From the NCBI GenBank assembly GCA_944363535.1, contig CALVUG010000006.1:1-41301 (forward strand): a stretch of 41,301 bases of DNA, read 5' to 3'. Position 1 is the first letter of the stretch. Each line of letters opens with the position of its first letter. This DNA is from an uncultured Bacilli bacterium. GTDB lineage: Bacteria; Bacillota_I; Bacilli_A; RFN20; CAG-826. Under the pieces are notes generated by a model. The model was not told the origin of the DNA, ran no database searches, and was given only the letters and a program-made list of their open reading frames with translations. Positions 4,859 to 13,983 of this stretch are shown here, piece after piece. The translations under genes were made by a program, and so were the position numbers.

Positions 4859-6091
4859 ATGATTGCAAGAACGATTAAAAAAGAAATTATTAAAAGTGTT
4901 AAAAACCGACCTGTTACTCTCATCACTGGCGCAAGGCAAGTGGGGAAATCGACTATTTGCTATGAGTTAAAAAACGAATTAGGTTTCGCTTATGTTTCTT
5001 TAGATGATATTCGCCTTAGAGAAGAAGCTATTAACGATCCGGAACTATTTTTAGAAATACATCATTGGCCTATTATTATCGATGAAATACAACACGCTCC
5101 TAAGCTATTCTCGGTCATAGAAGCGATAGTGAATAAACAAAAGATGGAAACCGGTTCTAATTATGGCATGTTCATCTTAACAGGTTCTGAAACGTATGAG
5201 TTGTTAAGTGGCGTTAGCGAATCTTTAGCGGGTCGCGTTTCAATCATTAGAATGTCGCCTTTAAGCATGCGTGAAATAAAAGGGCAAGAAGAAAATATTT
5301 TTTTCTTCGATCCTTTAGTTTTAGCGAAGAGAAGTGAACAATTTATCCTAAGCACTGACGAATTATTTAAGACTATTGTCAGAGGAATGTATCCTGAGCT
5401 TTACGCGAACGAACAGTTAAATAGCGAAACATTTTATGCGGACTACGTCGCTACTTACATCGAACGAGATGTTTCTAAAATTATCAATTTAAAAGATAAA
5501 TTAAAATTTTATAATTTTATCGAAGTGTTAGCCTCACTTACAGGCGAAGAATTAATTTACGATAAATTAGCGAAAGCCATCGGCGTTAGCCTCGATACTA
5601 TCAAGGCGTGGATTAGCGTCTTAGTCGCGGGCGATATCATTTATCTTCTCGAGCCATATAATGAAATATCTTTAATTAAAAGAGTAGTGAAAAGACCAAA
5701 AATTTATTTTAATGATACTGGTCTAGCTTGCTATCTAGCGCATCTTAACGATGAAAAAGTGCTCATGAAATCTATTTTCAAAGGTCGATTTATTGAAACT
5801 TATATCGTCAATGAAATTAAAAAGACTTTTCGCAATAATGGGAGGAAAGAAAATTTTTATTATTATAGAGATAGCAATCAAAACGAGATCGACCTCGTCA
5901 TCTTAGAAAATGGCACCTTACATTTTGTCGAATGTAAGTCTGGTATCAAATTTGATAAGAAAGATGCCAAAGCGTTTAAGCAATTAGCAACTTCATCTTA
6001 TCAAATTGGTTATTCTTTCATAGTTTGTAATACACCTTCATTATATAAAATTGATGATTTAGTGTATGCCGTACCTATCTCTTCCATCTAG
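4859..6091 (+). CDS. AAA+ ATPase with DUF4143 (AAA_14 family)
   Basis: A 410-residue P-loop ATPase of the AAA_14/DUF4143 type, a family common in accessory DNA of gut bacteria and archaea; its cellular job is not established. Visible motifs are Walker A GARQVGKS (24-31), Walker B IIIDEIQ (72-77), a sensor-like LTGS (107-110) and ESLAGR (121-126), typical of the family. The C-terminal DUF4143 part has a restriction-nuclease-like pattern: NEIDLVI with Asp345 and VECKSG with Glu358 and Lys360. Catalysis by this part is inferred only. Start ATG with AAAGGA (4848-4853) five bases upstream. It is a single-gene unit and one of four related loci in this island, two of which are broken. Confidence 0.9.
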   Translation: MIARTIKKEIIKSVKNRPVTLITGARQVGKSTICYELKNELGFAYVSLDDIRLREEAINDPELFLEIHHWPIIIDEIQHAPKLFSVIEAIVNKQKMETGSNYGMFILTGSETYELLSGVSESLAGRVSIIRMSPLSMREIKGQEENIFFFDPLVLAKRSEQFILSTDELFKTIVRGMYPELYANEQLNSETFYADYVATYIERDVSKIINLKDKLKFYNFIEVLASLTGEELIYDKLAKAIGVSLDTIKAWISVLVAGDIIYLLEPYNEISLIKRVVKRPKIYFNDTGLACYLAHLNDEKVLMKSIFKGRFIETYIVNEIKKTFRNNGRKENFYYYRDSNQNEIDLVILENGTLHFVECKSGIKFDKKDAKAFKQLATSSYQIGYSFIVCNTPSLYKIDDLVYAVPISSI

Positions 6092-6312
6092 TAGTGGAAT
6101 ATTTTTTCATATAAAAAAAGAGACGATAAGCCTTTTAAATTTAGATTTTCTAAGACGATTAATCTTTTTCTTAGTCACTTTTTCACTACTTACTTTTTAT
6201 ATAAGATCGTTCACTAATGATGAAAAAAATATTTATTTTAAGTATTAATTTTAAAAATCCTACGGAATGAAAACCGAAAATTTCACCGATTAGAGTTGAT
6301 TTTATTTTTTGA

Positions 6313-6435
6313 AAAATTAAAAAAGAGGGTGGTAAACCCGCTAAGACGATGCTTGCTATTTGTGGTCTAACGAATGCTGCATATAGAAGAGAAGATGGTG
6401 TTTACGTCGTTCCTATTACTTCTTTAAAAGATTGA
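6313..6435 (+). pseudogene. Remnant: C-terminus of a second DUF4143 ATPase
   Basis: After an in-frame TGA at 6310-6312 there are 40 codons and then TGA at 6433-6435. They read GGKPAKTMLAICG, then YRREDGVYVVPITSLKD. This matches the usual C-terminal end of DUF4143 ATPases and parallels the end of the intact copy just upstream (IVCNTPSLYK, VYAVPISSI), yet differs enough to come from another subfamily member. There is no start codon with a Shine-Dalgarno and no N-terminal half, so it is a gene stump left by deletion or recombination. The recognition rests on my memory of the family. Confidence 0.6.
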
Positions 6436-6462
6436 TTTTTAAATGATGAATCAATTGAATAA

Positions 6463-6482
6463 TTTGCCAATATATTAGCAAA
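6463..6482. promoter_or_regulatory. HipB-type operator O1
   Basis: A 20-bp palindrome with one mismatch: arms TTTGCCAATA (6463-6472) and TATTAGCAAA (6473-6482). It shares the core GCNAATATATTAGC with O2 downstream; centres are 42 bp apart, four turns of B-DNA, so bound HipB dimers would lie on the same face. It lies just upstream of the -35 box. Confidence 0.7.
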
Positions 6483-6486
6483 AACC

Positions 6487-6515
6487 TTGTAAAAACATAG
6501 TAAAATTGCTAATAT
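6487..6515 (+). promoter_or_regulatory. hipBA promoter, predicted leaderless
   Basis: TTGTAA (6487-6492), 17-nt spacer, TAATAT (6510-6515). The -10 lies inside operator O2, so repressor binding would block RNA polymerase. The expected transcription start is at about 6522-6524, essentially on the ATG at 6524. Confidence 0.6.
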
Positions 6516-6521
6516 ATTAGC
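6508..6521. promoter_or_regulatory. HipB-type operator O2
   Basis: A perfect 14-bp palindrome, GCTAATA/TATTAGC, covering the -10 box of the hipBA promoter and ending 2 nt before the hipB start codon. It is the second copy of the O1 motif and is the expected autorepression site of a HipB antitoxin. Confidence 0.72.
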
Positions 6522-6523
6522 GT

Positions 6524-6814
6524 ATGGAAGAAAAAGCATTAGAGTTCGTTACTTATTATGAAGTGCAATTAGAAATCACTAAGCGTTTTATTACTATTAG
6601 AAAAAATAGAAAAATATCACAACTTAGATTATCTGAAATATCTGGAGTAAGCTATGCTTCCATTAGAAGATTTGAAAAAACTGGCGATATCTCTTTCGCG
6701 TCTTTAGTAAAACTCGCTATTGCGTTACGCTTATATGATGATTTAAATAATCTTTTTAAAGTTCATAAAGAATATCAATCAATAGAGGAAGTAATTAATG
6801 ATCAAGAAAATTGA
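6524..6814 (+). CDS. hipB: HipB-like antitoxin, XRE helix-turn-helix protein
   Basis: A 96-residue DNA-binding protein with an XRE-type helix-turn-helix at about residues 25-75 (RKNRKISQLRLSEISGVS, then YASIRRFEKTGDISFASL). As the antitoxin partner of the HipA-type kinase that follows, it should bind the two GCTAATATATTAGC sites and repress its own operon; this is inferred from position and family. The start codon has no Shine-Dalgarno and lies 8 nt after the -10 box, so translation from a leaderless mRNA is likely. Its 3' end overlaps hipA by 17 nt, which suggests coupled translation. It could be called HipB-like or simply a toxin-linked XRE regulator. Confidence 0.82.
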   Translation: MEEKALEFVTYYEVQLEITKRFITIRKNRKISQLRLSEISGVSYASIRRFEKTGDISFASLVKLAIALRLYDDLNNLFKVHKEYQSIEEVINDQEN

Positions 6815-7886
6815 TGTTTTTGCTGACAAGATTATAGTTGGCACCATTGCCTTAACTAAAGAAAAACAAGTCGCGTTTCAATACAGCAAAGAATGGCTAA
6901 AAAAAGGATTCTCAATCAATCCTATTAAACTTCCTTTAACTAGCAGAGTATTTATTTCAACTTCCCCACACTTTAAAGGATTATTTGGTGTATTTGCCGA
7001 TTCTCTTCCTGATAGTTATGGCGAATTGTTATTAGATAGATATTTGAAAAGAAAAGGAATTGACATTAGTTCACTTTCCTCTCTAGATAGATTAGCGTAC
7101 GTTGGCTCTTCTGGCATGGGGATTTTAGAATATATACCTGACTTCAGCGAGAAGCAAACTAATGAAAAAATTGATTTTGATTTCATTCAAAAAGAATGTA
7201 ATGACCTTTTAAATTCAAAAGATATTGCGAATATAAATGTTTTATATTCTTTGGCTGGTTCTAGTGGTGGCGCTAGGCCTAAGGCACTTATCAAATATAA
7301 AGATGAAGATTGGATAGTAAAATTCTCTTCGAAATTTGATCCTAAAAATATCGCCGAACTTGAATACAAATATATGTCATTAGCCAAAGAACTAGGAATT
7401 AATATTCCCCAGATTGAATTAATCACTTCAGAAAAAGGAAACAAGTTTTTCCTCATCAAAAGATTTGACCGTATAAATGATCGTAAAATTCACATGATAA
7501 GTGCAGCCGCATTATTAGAATGTGATTTTAGAGCCCCATCTCTTGATTATAACGACTTAATTAAACTTACTAGAGTGTTAACAAACAATGATGAAGACGT
7601 TATCGAAATGTACAGGAGAATGGTGTTTAATGTTTTGATTGGTAATCAAGATGATCACGCGAAAAATTTTTCGTTTATTTTTGATAGTAAAAAAATGATT
7701 TATCGTTTATCACCAGCGTATGATATTAGTCCAACCAAGACTTATTTTGGAGAGCACACAACTTCAGTGAACGGTAAGGGAAAAGGAATTAGAGATGAAG
7801 ATATGATTATAGTCGCTATAAATAATAAGATTGATGTTTCTATCGCTAAAGATATTATCGATAAATGCCATGCATTATTAAAATAA
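6798..7886 (+). CDS. hipA: HipA-like serine/threonine kinase toxin
   Basis: A 362-residue HipA-family kinase. Well-studied HipA proteins phosphorylate aminoacyl-tRNA synthetases and cause dormancy; the target here is unknown. The N-terminal couple_hipA region has the usual GVFADSLPDSYGELLLDRY (64-82) and LDRLAYVGSSGMGIL (96-110). The kinase core has the P-loop-like GSSGGARPK (154-162), the ATP-lysine segment DWIVKF (171-176), the catalytic loop GNQDDHAKN (282-290) and the metal-binding AYDISP (307-312), so it appears active. It is shorter than E. coli HipA (440 residues). AGAGGAAG (6784-6791) precedes the ATG, inside hipB. The pair sits between two ATPase gene remnants, consistent with insertion into a recombining region. 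Confidence 0.85.
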   Translation: MIKKIDVFADKIIVGTIALTKEKQVAFQYSKEWLKKGFSINPIKLPLTSRVFISTSPHFKGLFGVFADSLPDSYGELLLDRYLKRKGIDISSLSSLDRLAYVGSSGMGILEYIPDFSEKQTNEKIDFDFIQKECNDLLNSKDIANINVLYSLAGSSGGARPKALIKYKDEDWIVKFSSKFDPKNIAELEYKYMSLAKELGINIPQIELITSEKGNKFFLIKRFDRINDRKIHMISAAALLECDFRAPSLDYNDLIKLTRVLTNNDEDVIEMYRRMVFNVLIGNQDDHAKNFSFIFDSKKMIYRLSPAYDISPTKTYFGEHTTSVNGKGKGIRDEDMIIVAINNKIDVSIAKDIIDKCHALLK

Positions 7887-7922
7887 AAATTTTTTATTTA
7901 ATTTTCATCTATTAACACAAAA

Positions 7923-8174
7923 TCCCCAAATCCACATATAATCGATGTTTTTAACGCTATACAGGGGAGAAAAGATATTAATTTTTCTAAGTGCAAATTG
8001 CACTTTAGAATTGCTAGCAAAGAATATTATATTCAAGTGGTGGACAACTTACCAAGCGACAAACGCCTAAATAACGAATACGATGCTTTAATAAAAGTTC
8101 CTAATTCATTTAAGAAGATTATCGTCATTAATAGACCATTTCTTTCTTATCATGATGAAAAAGTGTACTTTTAA
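7923..8174 (+). pseudogene. Remnant: C-terminus of a third DUF4143 ATPase
   Basis: The frame ending at the TAA 8172-8174 reads EYYIQVVDNLPSDKRLNNEY, then DALIKVPNSFKKIIVIN. This resembles the C-terminal part of another DUF4143 ATPase subfamily, which usually reads YIQV, a run with an acidic helix, LLKI, then K-hhVI. No ATPase domain, start codon or Shine-Dalgarno is present and the 5' border is blurred, so it is a stump. With the remnant at 6313-6435 it brackets the hipBA pair. Identification is from motif memory. Confidence 0.5.
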
Positions 8175-8237
8175 TTTCATTAGAAGAATTTTTGTTAAAT
8201 AAGAACAGTTTAGATTTATAAGGCTTAATTTCAAAAT

Positions 8238-8271
8238 AAAAGGCCTTAGAAACACGTCTAGGGCCTTTTTT
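8238..8271. terminator. Bidirectional terminator
   Basis: AAAAGGCCTTAGA (8238-8250) pairs with TCTAGGGCCTTTTTT (8257-8271) around loop AACACG, with A and T runs on both sides. It ends the minus-strand regulator gene 17 nt after its stop codon and would also stop plus-strand reading from the hipBA side. Confidence 0.85.
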
Positions 8272-8287
8272 CAATGAAGATGATAAA

Positions 8288-9322
8288 TTATGCGTTAGGA
8301 GGCGTTTCGCTTGGTGGTAATAAGTTTGCTACCACACCAATGATGACGATAACGATGACCACTATCGCGATGATGATGATCCATTTTCTTCTTTTCTTCT
8401 TTCTAAGAATAGCGGTTTCTTCTTCGATCTTAGCAATTCTTGCTTGCTTATCTTTTTGTCCTCTTTTAACAGCTTCATTTTTCGTTAAAACATCGATCGC
8501 GGGCAAATTAGTGAGACTTTTATTCGCTAAGTTGGCTTTTAATAAATTTAAGGCATTTTGAATTTCGGCAATGCTATTTAAAGTAGCCCTTCTAATTTGA
8601 GTGCAGTAAGCTTTAACGTTTGGACTCTTATCTAAGATGTTATTGAAGATGTAAACTCTCACCGCGCTTTGCACTTGTATATCATAACTATTTGCTTCTC
8701 CGTTTTTATCGTAATAAGAAATCATGATAGCGTGCAAATCAGTCTCACCACTCGTACCGCGCAAGCCTCCAGAAGCAGTATGCGTAACATTCATATCGAT
8801 GAAGTTTTCAAAAGGACAGACGAATTGTTCCGCGTCATCGAAGACAAAACCAAGTGTTTTATTGTTATCATCGATGAAGAAATAACATAGTAAATCAGGT
8901 TGTAAATAGATAACTCTGCTATATTGCGAAACATTCGTCACATTTTCAAATCTTTTCAAATTATCTTTAAAAACTTGATTGACATCATATTTATCTTTTC
9001 TTGCCTTTCCATTATTGATGTAATCATGATCAATATCAGCTTGTTCTGGATCTAGAGTAATATCGCTTACGTAGACGTCACGATACGTCTTTTTAACTTC
9101 ATTAGAGGTGTTATAAGTAATATTCTTCTTATCATCTAATAAGACATCTAATGAGACGTTGAAATAAAGCGCCATTTTCTTGAGTTTTTCAATGTCGGGG
9201 ATAGCTTCACCACTTTCCCATTTAAAGACAGCCTGTCTAGATATATCGAAGACGTTCGCGAGTTCTTCTTGTGACATACCTTTTTGTTTTCTTAAATTCA
9301 TAATTTTGTCTGCAAGTTTCAT
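8288..9322 (-). CDS. XRE-family regulator with C-terminal membrane helix
   Basis: A 344-residue protein. An XRE helix-turn-helix is at about residues 5-62 (MNLRKQKGMSQEELANVFDI, then SRQAVFKWESGEAIPDIEKL). A middle domain of about 230 residues is unknown to me. A charged, coiled-coil-like stretch follows near residues 280-312, then RKKKRRK and one strongly hydrophobic helix (about 315-336) with a short Pro-rich tail. The positive-inside rule places the DNA-binding domain in the cytoplasm, so this would be a membrane-tethered regulator, perhaps sensing an envelope signal. Shine-Dalgarno AAGGAG lies upstream of the ATG. It stands alone, with a terminator after it. Its targets are unknown. Confidence 0.8.
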   Translation of the reverse strand: MKLADKIMNLRKQKGMSQEELANVFDISRQAVFKWESGEAIPDIEKLKKMALYFNVSLDVLLDDKKNITYNTSNEVKKTYRDVYVSDITLDPEQADIDHDYINNGKARKDKYDVNQVFKDNLKRFENVTNVSQYSRVIYLQPDLLCYFFIDDNNKTLGFVFDDAEQFVCPFENFIDMNVTHTASGGLRGTSGETDLHAIMISYYDKNGEANSYDIQVQSAVRVYIFNNILDKSPNVKAYCTQIRRATLNSIAEIQNALNLLKANLANKSLTNLPAIDVLTKNEAVKRGQKDKQARIAKIEEETAILRKKKRRKWIIIIAIVVIVIVIIGVVANLLPPSETPPNA

Positions 9323-9392
9323 AAATTTCTAAACTCCTTGTTTTGTTAGCCTTATTGTAAAGGAAAAGTAGACACTAAAAAAAGTAACTGCT

Positions 9393-9411
9393 GGTTAAAA
9401 AGTTGTTAACC
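9393..9411. promoter_or_regulatory. Candidate operator upstream of the XRE regulator
   Basis: The inverted repeat GGTTAA (9393-9398) / TTAACC (9406-9411) with a 7-nt centre is flanked further out by AAAGT and ACTTT. It lies about 70 bp before the regulator's start codon, a normal place for autoregulation. Binding is inferred only. Confidence 0.35.
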
Positions 9412-9585
9412 ATCACTTTACATTTTGCCATTTTTTAAAGAATTTAGTAATTTTTTATCACAAAAAGGGACAAAATTGTTAAAGAATGATGAAGGATGAT
9501 GAATAGCTAGATTCACTCATCGAATAAGTGAATAAACATTCATCTAAGAGTTAAAAAAAAGTGTAATTTAAATAAACTTTTTCAT

Positions 9586-9618
9586 ATAAAAAAATAACCT
9601 ATAGTAAAATAGGCTATT
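9586..9618 (-). terminator. Terminator of the second intact ATPase gene
   Basis: On the minus strand AATAGCCTAT pairs with ATAGGTTATT (one G-U) around a 6-nt loop, followed by a run of seven T, 100 nt after the gene's stop codon. Confidence 0.75.
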
Positions 9619-9718
9619 TACGTGATAAGGTTCTTCTTTAATCTTACAATTATTGATTAAGAAACTAAATATTTTACAAAGTAGCAAACTTTCTTAATCA
9701 AATATCTCGTCGATCGTT

Positions 9719-11092
9719 TTAGTCGTTATTTTTTTCTTTATCGTTTTCGTTTAAGAATAAAGAAAAATAATAGAAAGGAAGTGTTAAAATCTTATTTTTT
9801 TCATCGTAACCATAGCGATTAGAAGATACTTTGATCGCTAAAGTGTTTTTATTGTGCATTCTAAACTCATCTAATGAATTTAAAGCGCCTCTAGTTTTCT
9901 TACAATCGATAGGAACGACATTTCCATCTAAATCGATCAAATATTCGATTTTACTATTTCTTTTTCCTTTCCAATAATATAAAGGATAATTTCTCGCTGT
10001 TAATTCGATGGAAAGATAATTTTCGTAATAAATTCCAGAAAGCGAGTTATCTTTATTAAAAATAAAATTTTTCGCGTTTAAGCCACTTTGGAAAGTGAAT
10101 ATACCCATATCCGCTAGGTAGAGGCGATAAGAAGAAGTTTCTTTAGCGATTAATGGATAAGTAACCCTCTCTTTTAATAAAGATGACTTATTGATGATAT
10201 TAGCGGTCTCTAGCCATTCTATCGGAGTGAAGATATCGCGCGATTTGTAATTTTCGTTTATTAAAGATGGTTTAAAATTTTTATTTTCCTTATTTAGTTG
10301 AGTGTAGATGTTATTAAAGATGGACCTGCTTTTTAGTATCGATTCTTTGCTAGCTTGATATAATTCCATATCATTTAAATAATCATCGTATATCTCTTTT
10401 ATCTTTTTATTTACTTTATTGTATGCTAGTAGCGTATCATCTTTCGCTTTGATGAATGTATCAACTGCTTCTGGCATACCGCCTACGAAAAGATAATCGT
10501 AAAAAATATCCATCAATTCTTCATGAATGCTAGAGTCTAGAACAGTTTTATCTAAGAAAGATTTTTTTAAAAAATCATAAGCGGATTTTCTATAGTTATA
10601 TAAAAATTCATCGAAGGTTAAAGGATAAATCGTGAGTTTATTTATATTACCGACTGGAAATAAAAACCCCTTATTAGCGAATCCGCCTCTTTTATGCGAT
10701 TGTCTATGAAGTTTAATTCTTACTAGAGAGCCTGTAACGATGAGAGGAATTTCTCTTCTCTGTTCGTTAAAATGTTTCATCATCTTAATGAGAGGCAAAC
10801 ATTCTTGTACTTCATCAAAAATGAGCAAGTGGCTGCCATCTGGCACAAAATCATAATTGATTTGAATGTATTGTAACACTTTTGTTAAATTATCGTTTCG
10901 ATAGACGAAATCGACGAAATCAGGTTCGTTGGAACAATCGATGCGCACATATTTATTTTTATAAAATTGTTCAGCGAATAAATTTTTAATTAGATAAGTT
11001 TTGCCTACCTGTCTTGCGCCCATGACAAGTAAAGGTTTCCTATCAGGATCTTCATTCCATGCGATTAAATCTTTAAGATACTTTCTTTCCAT
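9719..11092 (-). CDS. AAA+ ATPase with DUF4143, second intact copy
   Basis: A 457-residue AAA_14/DUF4143 ATPase of a different subfamily from the one at 4859-6091. I chose the ATG at 11092 (MERKYLKDLIAWN, the usual family start) because GGAGA lies just before it; the frame also opens at 11125, inside the repeat array. Walker A is GARQVGKT (25-32), Walker B LLIFDEVQE (about 91-99), the sensor region IVTGS. The C-terminal part has a long helical insert (about 200-270), a membrane-free DUF4143 core, and the nuclease-like IEYLID and VVPIDCKKTRG (Asp and Lys). A terminator follows. Its role is unknown. The upstream three-fold repeat suggests tight or unusual control. Confidence 0.88.
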   Translation of the reverse strand: MERKYLKDLIAWNEDPDRKPLLVMGARQVGKTYLIKNLFAEQFYKNKYVRIDCSNEPDFVDFVYRNDNLTKVLQYIQINYDFVPDGSHLLIFDEVQECLPLIKMMKHFNEQRREIPLIVTGSLVRIKLHRQSHKRGGFANKGFLFPVGNINKLTIYPLTFDEFLYNYRKSAYDFLKKSFLDKTVLDSSIHEELMDIFYDYLFVGGMPEAVDTFIKAKDDTLLAYNKVNKKIKEIYDDYLNDMELYQASKESILKSRSIFNNIYTQLNKENKNFKPSLINENYKSRDIFTPIEWLETANIINKSSLLKERVTYPLIAKETSSYRLYLADMGIFTFQSGLNAKNFIFNKDNSLSGIYYENYLSIELTARNYPLYYWKGKRNSKIEYLIDLDGNVVPIDCKKTRGALNSLDEFRMHNKNTLAIKVSSNRYGYDEKNKILTLPFYYFSLFLNENDKEKNND

Positions 11093-11100
11093 AAAATCTC

Positions 11101-11189
11101 CATATCTTGCACCTTTTGACAGCATTTAATGTATCATATCTTGCACCTTTTGACAACTTATTCTTCTCCATATCTTGCACCTTTTTACA
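11101..11189. repeat. Three 21-bp direct repeats with exact 34-bp period
   Basis: On the plus strand the core CATATCTTGCACCTTTTGACA occurs at 11101-11121 and 11135-11155, and with one change (TTTTTACA) at 11169-11189. Starts are 34 bp apart each time, with unrelated 13-bp spacers. In gene direction each copy reads TGTCAAAAGGTGCAAGATATG, and the copy nearest the ATPase runs into its Shine-Dalgarno. I infer iterated protein-binding sites (operator or recombination iterons). It is too short and has too few copies for a CRISPR array, and no cas gene is near. Confidence 0.85.
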
Positions 11190-11214
11190 CCTTTGCTATT
11201 ATCTAGTTTTCAAA

Positions 11215-11235
11215 ATGATAAGTTGTACTTATCAT
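11215..11235. promoter_or_regulatory. Palindrome upstream of the repeat array
   Basis: Perfect 9-bp arms ATGATAAGT (11215-11223) and ACTTATCAT (11227-11235) around TGT, between the ppdK terminator and the repeats. It has no T run, so an operator is likelier than a terminator. Confidence 0.4.
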
Positions 11236-11278
11236 ATGTTTTTTACTTTATTAAAATTTAAAAATTATTAATGGCATT

Positions 11279-11320
11279 AAAAAAGCTGCCCTTTAGAAAT
11301 GAGTCTAGAGAGCAGCTTTT
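11279..11320 (-). terminator. ppdK terminator
   Basis: GCTGCCCTTTAGA (11285-11297) pairs with TCTAGAGAGCAGC (11304-11316), 12 of 13 positions, with an A run at 11279-11284 that is a T run in the gene direction. It starts about 30 nt after the ppdK stop codon. Confidence 0.9.
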
Positions 11321-11349
11321 AAGCGTTAGTGTAAGACGATTAGAAACAA

Positions 11350-13983
11350 TTATTTCTTTTCGTGCTTAATGTGTGCTTGTGCCGCGGCAAGACGGGCGAC
11401 AGGAACACGGAATGGCGAACAAGAAACGTAATCTAAACCAACTTCTTCAAAGAAATCAATTGAGACTGGATCGCCACCTACTTCACCACAGACACCGAGG
11501 TGTAAGTGTGGGTTCGTAGATCTTCCTTTCTTAGAGGCCATATCGACTAATTGGCCAACGCCTTTAACATCGATCGTTTGGAATGGATCTTGTTCGAAGA
11601 TCTTAGTTTCATAATATTTGGGTAAGAACTTACCAGCATCGTCACGGCTAAAGCCGAATGTCATCTGGGTTAAATCGTTCGTACCGAAGGAGAAGAATTC
11701 AGCTTCAGTAGCAATTTCATCAGCGAGTAAAGCTGCGCGTGGGATTTCGATCATCGTTCCGACGTGATAATGCATTTCGACTTTTGCTTCAGCGATAAGT
11801 TTATCCGCGGTTTCGGTGATGATATTTTTCACGAACTTAAATTCTTTAAGATCTAAGGTTAAAGGAATCATGATTTCAGGTTCAATCTTCTTACCTAAAT
11901 CCTTTTGTGCCTTAATAGCGGCTTCGATAATAGCGGTAGTTTGCATTCTAGCAATTTCTGGATAAGAAACCGCTAAACGGCAACCACGGTGACCCATCAT
12001 CGGGTTAAATTCATGTAAGTAAGCGATACGGTCTTTGATGACAGCAACGCTCGTATTAAGTGCTTTCGCTAATTCTTCAATCTTATCTTCTTCTTGTGGT
12101 AAGAATTCGTGTAGAGGTGGATCAAGTAAACGTACATTAACGTTTAAACCATCCATCGCCATATATAACTTATAGAAGTCATCACGTTGATAAGGAAGAA
12201 GTTCTGCTAAAGCAGCTTCTCTACCCTTCGTATCATCGGAAAGAATCATCTTTCTCATATGGAAGATACGATCTTTATCGAAGAACATATGTTCAGTACG
12301 GCATAAGCCAATACCTTGCGCCCCAAATTTTTTCGCTTGGATAGCGTCTCTTGGTGTATCAGCGTTCGCACGGACGAGTAATCTTCTATTGGCATCCGCC
12401 CAGCTCATCAAACGACCGAAGTCACCAGTTAATTCTGGTTCGACTTTCTTGACGTCAACGTCGTAGACGTAACCGGTTGAACCATCGATTGATAAAACGT
12501 CTTGATCGGTGAAAGTTCTATCGCCAAGTTTGACGGTGCGAGCTTCTTCATCGACGACGATAGCAGAGCATCCAGCGACGCAGCATTTACCCATACCACG
12601 GGCGACAACAGCGGCGTGAGAAGTCATACCGCCTCTCATCGTTAAGATACCTTCTGCGGCGACCATACCTTCGATATCTTCAGGGGATGTTTCTGCTCTA
12701 ACTAAGACGACTTTTTCGCCTTTGGCGTGTCTTTCCGCCGCTTCTTTAGCGTCGAAACAAATCTTACCAGTCGCAGCGCCTGGAGAAGCTGGTAAACCAG
12801 TAGCGATAGGTTTGATAGCTTTTAAGGCTGCTTGATCAAAACTTGGATGTAATAAAGCATCTAAGGATTTTGGTTCGACTCTTAAGACAGCTTCTTTTTC
12901 ATCGATGATACCTTCATCGACTAAATCGCAAGCGATCTTTAAGGCTGCGTTAGGAGTTCTCTTACCATTTCTTGTTTGTAAGAAGTAGAGTTTACCATCT
13001 TCGACGGTGAATTCCATATCTTGCATATCTTTGTAATGGTTTTCCATTAATTTAATTGTTTTGACGAATTGATCGTAAACTTCTGGCATTCTCTTCTGTA
13101 ATTCTTCGATGTGAAGAGGAGTGCGGATACCAGCGACGACGTCTTCGCCTTGGGCGTTTGGTAAATATTCAGCAAAAACTTTCTTTTCACCGGTTGCAGG
13201 GGAACGAGAGAACGCTACGCCTGTTCCGGAAGTTTCACCCTTGTTACCAAAGACCATCGATTGAACGTTGACAGCGGTGCCCCAGGAATAAGGAATGTTA
13301 TTCATCTTACGATAAATATTCGCGCGTTCATTATCCCAAGAACGGAAAACAGCAGTGACAGCTTCAATTAATTGAACTTTTGGATCTTGTGGGAATTCTT
13401 CACCGAAAACTTTCTTATAATAAGCCTTGTATTCTTTCACTAAATCTTTAAGTTCTTCTGCGGTTACTTCTGTATCGAGTTTGTAACCTCTTTTTTCTTT
13501 AAGTTCATCGAGCATCTTATCCATGTCAGTGCGTGGATGACCTTTAGCGATATTAGTGAACATTAAGATGAAACGACGGAAGCAATCGTAAGCGAAACGA
13601 TCGTTACTTGTTTCTTTTGCTAAGACTTCGACAGTCTTATCGTTAAGACCAAGGTTAAGAATAGTATCCATCATACCTGGCATACTGACTCTTGCACCGG
13701 AACGAACACTTACGAGCAATGGTTTGTGATCGCCACCGAAAGCTTTGCCAGTTTCATTTTCGACTTCCTTAATAGCAGCGAAAATATCTTTCACTAAATA
13801 TTCTGGAAGTACTTTTTTGTTCTCGTAATAAAGAGTGCATGCTTCAGTTGAAATTGTAAAGCCTTGTGGAATGGGAACTCCAATATGAGTCATTTCAGCA
13901 AGGCCCGCACCTTTACCACCGAGGAGTTCTTTGCCTAAACCATAGGCATCTTTGAAACTATAGACATATTTCTTTTGTTCCAT
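11350..13983 (-). CDS. ppdK: Pyruvate, phosphate dikinase
   Basis: This 877-residue cytosolic enzyme interconverts PEP, AMP and PPi with pyruvate, ATP and Pi. In anaerobes it often serves as the PPi-linked glycolytic step. The length matches the Clostridium symbiosum enzyme (874). The N-terminal nucleotide-binding domain starts GKELLGGKGAGLAEM and includes VSVRSGARVSMPGMMDT (91-107). The phospho-transfer histidine is His456 in TMRGGMTSHAAVVARGMG, next to Thr454, the residue phosphorylated in regulated plant enzymes. The C-terminal PEP/pyruvate barrel carries GLCRTEHMFF and GVCGEVGGDP, with catalytic Cys832. GGAGG lies 6 nt before the ATG. The gene stands alone, with a terminator behind and a palindrome in its leader. 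Confidence 0.97.
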   Translation of the reverse strand: MEQKKYVYSFKDAYGLGKELLGGKGAGLAEMTHIGVPIPQGFTISTEACTLYYENKKVLPEYLVKDIFAAIKEVENETGKAFGGDHKPLLVSVRSGARVSMPGMMDTILNLGLNDKTVEVLAKETSNDRFAYDCFRRFILMFTNIAKGHPRTDMDKMLDELKEKRGYKLDTEVTAEELKDLVKEYKAYYKKVFGEEFPQDPKVQLIEAVTAVFRSWDNERANIYRKMNNIPYSWGTAVNVQSMVFGNKGETSGTGVAFSRSPATGEKKVFAEYLPNAQGEDVVAGIRTPLHIEELQKRMPEVYDQFVKTIKLMENHYKDMQDMEFTVEDGKLYFLQTRNGKRTPNAALKIACDLVDEGIIDEKEAVLRVEPKSLDALLHPSFDQAALKAIKPIATGLPASPGAATGKICFDAKEAAERHAKGEKVVLVRAETSPEDIEGMVAAEGILTMRGGMTSHAAVVARGMGKCCVAGCSAIVVDEEARTVKLGDRTFTDQDVLSIDGSTGYVYDVDVKKVEPELTGDFGRLMSWADANRRLLVRANADTPRDAIQAKKFGAQGIGLCRTEHMFFDKDRIFHMRKMILSDDTKGREAALAELLPYQRDDFYKLYMAMDGLNVNVRLLDPPLHEFLPQEEDKIEELAKALNTSVAVIKDRIAYLHEFNPMMGHRGCRLAVSYPEIARMQTTAIIEAAIKAQKDLGKKIEPEIMIPLTLDLKEFKFVKNIITETADKLIAEAKVEMHYHVGTMIEIPRAALLADEIATEAEFFSFGTNDLTQMTFGFSRDDAGKFLPKYYETKIFEQDPFQTIDVKGVGQLVDMASKKGRSTNPHLHLGVCGEVGGDPVSIDFFEEVGLDYVSCSPFRVPVARLAAAQAHIKHEKK

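Follow-up and report, generated by a model that had tools for sequence, protein, structure and literature searches.

The window, meaning the whole stretch of 41,301 nucleotides that was analysed, carries on its minus strand a gene for a protein, P0001, that combines an AAA+ ATPase domain with a nuclease domain and is preceded by three near-identical 21-bp direct repeats, numbered here in the gene's reading direction. The features of this locus are:

11215..11235, no strand: perfect palindrome ATGATAAGTTGTACTTATCAT; it precedes the array, with the ppdK-side hairpin on its other side
11169..11189, minus strand: repeat copy 1, gene-distal, TGTAAAAAGGTGCAAGATATG; its core AAAAGGTGCA fits the family consensus AAAAnnTGYA
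11156..11168, minus strand: non-conserved 13-bp spacer separating copies 1 and 2
11151..11156, minus strand: putative -35 box TTGTCA, made by the edge of copy 2, in the same layout as at the proximal copies of homologues
11135..11155, minus strand: repeat copy 2, TGTCAAAAGGTGCAAGATATG
11128..11133, minus strand: putative -10 box TACATT, 17 bp from the -35 box
11122..11134, minus strand: 13-bp spacer between copies 2 and 3, containing the -10-like TACATT
11101..11121, minus strand: repeat copy 3, gene-proximal, TGTCAAAAGGTGCAAGATATG; its last base starts the Shine-Dalgarno sequence
11098..11101, minus strand: Shine-Dalgarno GGAG, with a one-base overlap with the end of copy 3
9719..11092, minus strand: AAA+ ATPase / winged-helix / PD-(D/E)XK protein P0001, 457 aa, PADLOC PDC-S01, ATG at 11092
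10589..11092, minus strand: AAA+ domain, about residues 1-168; Walker A GARQVGKT, Walker B DE and sensor-1-like TGS conserved
10115..10348, minus strand: predicted winged-helix region, about residues 249-326, the presumed reader of the repeats; K283 caps the recognition helix
9746..10075, minus strand: PD-(D/E)XK-type nuclease domain, about residues 340-449; E357, E381 and K398 conserved

The repeat array and the ATPase gene

On the plus strand, CATATCTTGCACCTTTTGACA starts at 11101, 11135 and 11169 (0, 0 and 1 mismatches), with start-to-start distances of 34 and 34 bp; in the gene's reading direction, on the minus strand, the core is TGTmAAAAGGTGCAAGATATG. Allowing up to three mismatches, the 21-mer is found three times in the window against 0.00 expected from 100 dinucleotide shuffles, and TRF places an array at 11095-11189 (period 34, score 125) that is by far the strongest tandem repeat of the window; the three cores are not there by chance. 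The preliminary description of this DNA, which had noted three near-identical 21-bp cores at an exact 34-bp period before a DUF4143 ATPase gene, with unrelated 13-bp spacers, is thus confirmed on both counts. It also had the last copy reaching the Shine-Dalgarno sequence, and the contact stands, with the clarification that the gene lies on the minus strand and that the touching copy is the one at 11101-11121. A search of the 906-kb genome with the 16-bp heart of the core, two mismatches allowed, returned no other convincing copy beyond the array, so the wide scatter without a family link that would have refuted a role at this gene is not seen in this genome.

TTGTCA and TACATT, at a 17-bp spacing, make a plausible promoter for the ATPase gene as judged from the letters alone, with the -35 box supplied by copy 2; the putative -10 box is weak (4/6 matches). 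An earlier start codon at 11125, within the spacer, was rejected, as homologues align from the ATG at 11092 and the 11125 start is not conserved. A structured RNA or riboswitch was rejected after no Rfam match was found in 9000-12000, and the core does not appear to be a stray piece of another gene, since its other genic matches, which occur only in mnmE and a ribonucleotide-reductase-like gene of other genomes (families assigned by eye), are single copies within coding sequence. The palindrome ATGATAAGTTGTACTTATCAT is the sole copy in the genome, and its arms are preserved in three sister species, also beside decayed ATPase genes; it is possibly a second operator.

Pfam assigns the protein to AAA_14 (7.8e-21) and then to DUF4143 (1.1e-15), and the PADLOC PDC-S01 model PDLC04786 matches it at E 3e-105. 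In the alignment of homologues, G25, G30, K31, D93, E94 and E357 are invariant, and E381 and K398 occur in at least 90% of rows. An AlphaFold2 model (pLDDT 91.7) has AAA+ domain, helical linker, winged helix and PD-(D/E)XK domain in that order; it is from this model that residues about 249-326 read as a winged helix. The best Foldseek matches are a Pyrococcus Walker ATPase, ORC, Orc1/Cdc6 on origin DNA, and DnaA, with modest TM-scores (overall about 0.3), and phmmer found nothing in the PDB at E 1 or better. PDC-S01 has been described as an ATPase fused to PD-(D/E)XK, the same domain pair as in the window protein, and as a defence candidate, the fourth most common in prokaryotes with 29,494 bacterial and 9,986 archaeal cases (PMC12988326); PDCs remain unvalidated, and anti-phage activity of PDC-S01 is not established (PMC12988326).

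The neighbouring DNA at 4859-9322 is defence-like, with a second DUF4143 ATPase gene (4859-6091), an HTH plus HipA pair (6524-7886), and an XRE protein (8288-9322) with a probable C-terminal transmembrane stretch. Regulation through this XRE protein, for which the preliminary description proposed gel shifts, is unsupported, because none of the neighbouring genes is conserved across 46 loci; nor is there a conserved transposase or integrase gene nearby in these 46.

Distribution of the arrays and covariation of core and protein

We searched for direct repeats upstream of homologous genes, scoring each upstream region against dinucleotide shuffles. The homologue set has 54 non-redundant members (27-98% identity) from Bacilli, Mycoplasmatota, Treponema, Bacteroidales and Riflebacteria, and 51 of them have significant upstream direct repeats, with a best lag of 33 in 34 loci, 34 in 17, and no other lag. 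Their common core is AAAAnnTGYA, present in 2-5 copies, and the nn is mostly constant inside one array, as GG, CT, TG, CG or AG; three near homologues have the core in reverse orientation with respect to the gene. Absence of the array upstream of homologues, which would have refuted the operator role suggested in the preliminary description, is thus not what is seen. That description underestimated the generality of the repeat, which characterises an entire branch of the family rather than this one locus.

A further 85 promoters of DUF4143 ATPase genes, all within the same bacterial family, make up the distant set, or 83 after dropping the window gene and one duplicate. These more distant relatives (27-46% identity) have significant repeats in 57/83 regions; the spacing is 32 or 33 bp in almost every case, and many cores are no longer recognisably similar to each other; about a third of the 83 upstream regions have no detectable array. 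Among plasmid-borne relatives (27-33% identity) the array is present in 8/11, namely those of Segatella, Acinetobacter, Vibrio, Collinsella, Criblamydia, Parabacteroides, Agathobacter and Fusobacterium animalis, and all four copies on gut phage contigs have it. Together, array-bearing homologues and distant, plasmid-borne and phage-contig relatives span nine phyla. The pooled autocorrelation of 145 upstream regions peaks sharply at 33; its other maxima, near 22, 43 and 54, are low and broad, and the pattern is one of helical phasing.

Ten of 126 control promoters, from unrelated genes at the same loci, pass the same test, four of them at 32-34 bp; by eye, one of these four belongs to an AAA_14/DUF4143-type ATPase and one to an AbiEi-like gene. 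At L037 322-542, an AbiEi-like gene (also by eye) has an upstream direct repeat with a 34-bp period. The other DUF4143 branch, which includes the window gene at 4859-6091, has a 33-bp array in only 1/14; the trait therefore belongs to one branch, and we rejected the idea that DUF4143 genes in general have the array, that short branch being without it.

Several further repeats were observed. Some alphaproteobacterial members have a visible 22-bp period, significant in only one, and upstream repeats of other DUF4143 paralogues in the window's own genome (L171, L170 and L173) are spaced 23, 46 and about 70 bp. In two species (L145 and L153), a GG-type core precedes a gene resembling the other DUF4143 branch, perhaps left over from a lost neighbour.

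Similarity of cores was compared with similarity of proteins, using an array-similarity threshold set so that 1% of pairs pass by construction. The core is shared by 96% of protein pairs above 60% identity, 67% at 50-60%, 18% at 40-50%, and 4-8% below. Close proteins in different phyla carry the same core, and paralogues within single genomes share theirs in only 3/27 pairs, the other 24 falling below threshold; the period is conserved across the branch and the sequence diverges with the protein. By these sequence comparisons the core tracks the protein, not the host. As no neighbour is conserved either, a cis-encoded reader, the ATPase itself, is the simplest inference.

Within the ATPase, K283, which caps the N-terminus of the recognition helix in the model, is the most strongly associated with the core dinucleotide among 441 alignment columns; the residue is Lys in 22/22 GG arrays, Ser in 16/16 CT arrays and Arg in 4/5 CG arrays. 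In tree-independent pairs it is also first of 410 columns (3.9/5 agree and none oppose), but a signal from at most five independent pairs cannot reach significance. Much of the association comes from one clade (CT core with Ser), and we regard it as only suggestive of the ATPase reading the repeats.

Arrays away from the promoter, gene loss, and alternative explanations

Although most homologue loci have copies upstream only, at 15 loci same-orientation copies also lie at the 3′ end of the gene, one to three per locus, and those of Bacilli frequently overlap the stop codon (ten loci in Bacilli, five in Bacteroidales: L073, L074, L075, L076, L077, L078, L084, L085, L086 and L088; L051, L053, L057, L058 and L059). 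There are also arrays without a gene. At L022 4415-4655 the unit TTGCTATTTTGTGGTAA is repeated eight times with a spacing of exactly 32 bp, the next 1.7 kb contains no ATPase gene, and the core resembles that before the Agathobacter ATPase; L139, L147, L149, L152, L156 and L160 have two- to three-copy AAAAGGTGCAATTAAT-type arrays with no detectable ATPase gene nearby. One relative has no gene at the position where, by synteny, a bracketed gene would lie, and it lacks the arrays there too; a search for empty sites through tRNA-rich flanks gave nothing useful. The 3′-end and orphan arrays are not needed for autoregulation, and they keep a mobile-cassette or docking-site reading alive.

Sister species illustrate how the locus changes. 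A congener, G044, shares the three-copy array and has an ATPase gene 98% identical, and two others (G043 and G042) have a single core and a wrecked ATPase gene: in G043 the gene start is joined to the last codons, and in G042 only about the first 40 codons are left. Of these decayed orthologues (L009 and L007), one was destroyed through an internal deletion with TCTT microhomology, and each retains one repeat copy. Copy number, three versus one, therefore changes through local duplication or loss, and because the start and one repeat are retained in the decayed genes, gene loss was no clean excision.

If the gene were a mobile cassette, with the arrays as ends or attachment sites at which the AAA+/nuclease protein binds both sides and moves or excises the gene, orphan arrays of two to eight copies would be empty sites. 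Same-orientation, same-period copies on both sides in two unrelated clades, Bacilli and Bacteroidales, a core that follows the protein across phyla, and the joint absence of gene and arrays at one syntenic site all fit; the prevalence of upstream-only loci, the lack of a conserved transposase or integrase gene nearby, the way two sister species lost the gene by internal deletion, and the fit of the array to the promoter do not, and we consider this explanation unlikely. That same fit to promoters is compatible with a host-encoded regulator, such as a general stress regulator or xenogene silencer, binding the arrays instead of the ATPase, as are the palindromic cores seen in Acinetobacter, Vibrio and Fusobacterium, which look like ordinary dimer operators. 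Such a regulator would give neither differing cores at paralogues of the same genome nor the same core at related proteins of different phyla, and is just as improbable.

Alternatively, the arrays could serve as decoy, sensor or store, holding the nuclease inactive in a row on the DNA, with transcription control secondary. The fixed helical period across the branch, the 3′-end copies, the orphan arrays of up to eight copies and the defence-candidate status of the ATPase are in keeping with this; we nonetheless give it little weight, as the arrays are nearly always at the promoter, with the -35 and -10 boxes in register. Local duplication or loss has certainly occurred, as the near-identical window copies and the single copies kept by two sister species with decayed genes attest, but chance or recent tandem duplication of a functionless leader is hard to credit when more than 100 homologues show this period with sequences that differ, as against 4/126 control promoters.

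A proposed iterated operator and its possible reader

Our preferred reading, to which we assign a probability of roughly 0.6, is that the array is an iterated operator of the ATPase gene, most likely bound by the ATPase, which represses itself. Binding and repression are inferred, and there are no binding or expression data. The repeats of homologues overlap the gene's likely promoter: in Bacilli a TTGnAA -35 box lies at the core edge and a TATAAT-like -10 box at 17 bp, so that the core fills the -35/-10 spacer. Also in Bacilli, the -10 match is better after proximal than after distal copies (4.57 versus 3.74 of 6, p=0.0019). The preliminary description had proposed iterated operators, or a binding site for the ATPase, as the likeliest role, and the distribution among homologues supports this; the joint absence of gene and arrays at one syntenic site counts in its favour too. 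The orphan and bracketing arrays remain unexplained by it, and the reversed cores of three near homologues and the distant members without an array also weigh against it.

A period near 33 bp is about three helical turns, and the copies would therefore lie on roughly one face of the DNA. We envisage that the winged helix of each ATPase molecule binds one core and that adjacent bound molecules touch via their AAA+ domains, forming a row that would cover the -35/-10 region, shut off transcription and keep the protein's own level low. It is because a bound row would cover the promoter that autorepression is the best reading, itself an inference. A further inference is that ATP state or an infection signal dissolves the row, releasing expression and possibly the nuclease too. 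More tentatively still, and with considerable doubt, we suggest a one-protein, one-array recognition code in a large AAA+/PD-(D/E)XK branch, each ATPase assembling in helical register on a private 33-bp array; the assembled state would then, beyond repression, be the resting form of the defence protein, and the 3′/5′ and orphan arrays further docking or mobility sites.

Initiators of the Orc1/Cdc6 and DnaA type recognise rows of boxes at origins, and some of them control expression of the genes that encode them. The ATPase resembles them in pairing AAA+ with a presumed C-terminal DNA-binding domain and in its fold matches; it differs in having no significant sequence match to solved structures, a low overall TM-score, an added nuclease domain, and no link to an origin. 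Autoregulated antitoxins such as AbiEi bind paired operators in their own promoter. The likeness here lies in small operators that overlap the gene's own promoter and in presumed cooperative repression, but the ATPase is a single gene without a toxin-antitoxin partner, with 2-5 direct repeats at about 33 bp and a core private to each paralogue; a toxin-antitoxin system was rejected, no adjacent partner gene being conserved in 46 loci. Plasmid iterons and parS-like centromere arrays likewise consist of short direct repeats that keep a constant helical spacing and lie close to a gene for a Walker-type ATPase; unlike them, the ATPase loci have no replication or ParB-type partner, and most of the arrays seen are chromosomal and in promoters. 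CRISPR arrays share near-identical repeats and dissimilar spacers, whereas the ATPase arrays have spacers of about 13 bp, 2-8 copies and promoters inside; CRISPR was rejected because the spacers are too short and there is no cas among conserved neighbours in the 46 loci.

The protein is already known as the PDC-S01 candidate, and the main text of the paper on it makes no mention of promoters or arrays at these genes (PMC12988326). We found no published report of arrays at PDC-S01/DUF4143 genes in a search that left out preprints and most subscription journals.

PDC-S01 is very common, yet no function or mechanism has been established for it. Arrays of constant period and variable sequence, present before most members of one branch, give each protein a candidate ligand that can be synthesized and directly tested. 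They also offer dozens of natural pairs of protein and DNA specificity, and K283 is a defined residue for mutation. The array can also serve as a marker for annotating these ATPase genes, and the protein/array pairs are possibly a set of orthogonal repressors. The private sequence of each array points to recognition of a separate DNA signature by every protein, most probably as a means of regulating its own synthesis.
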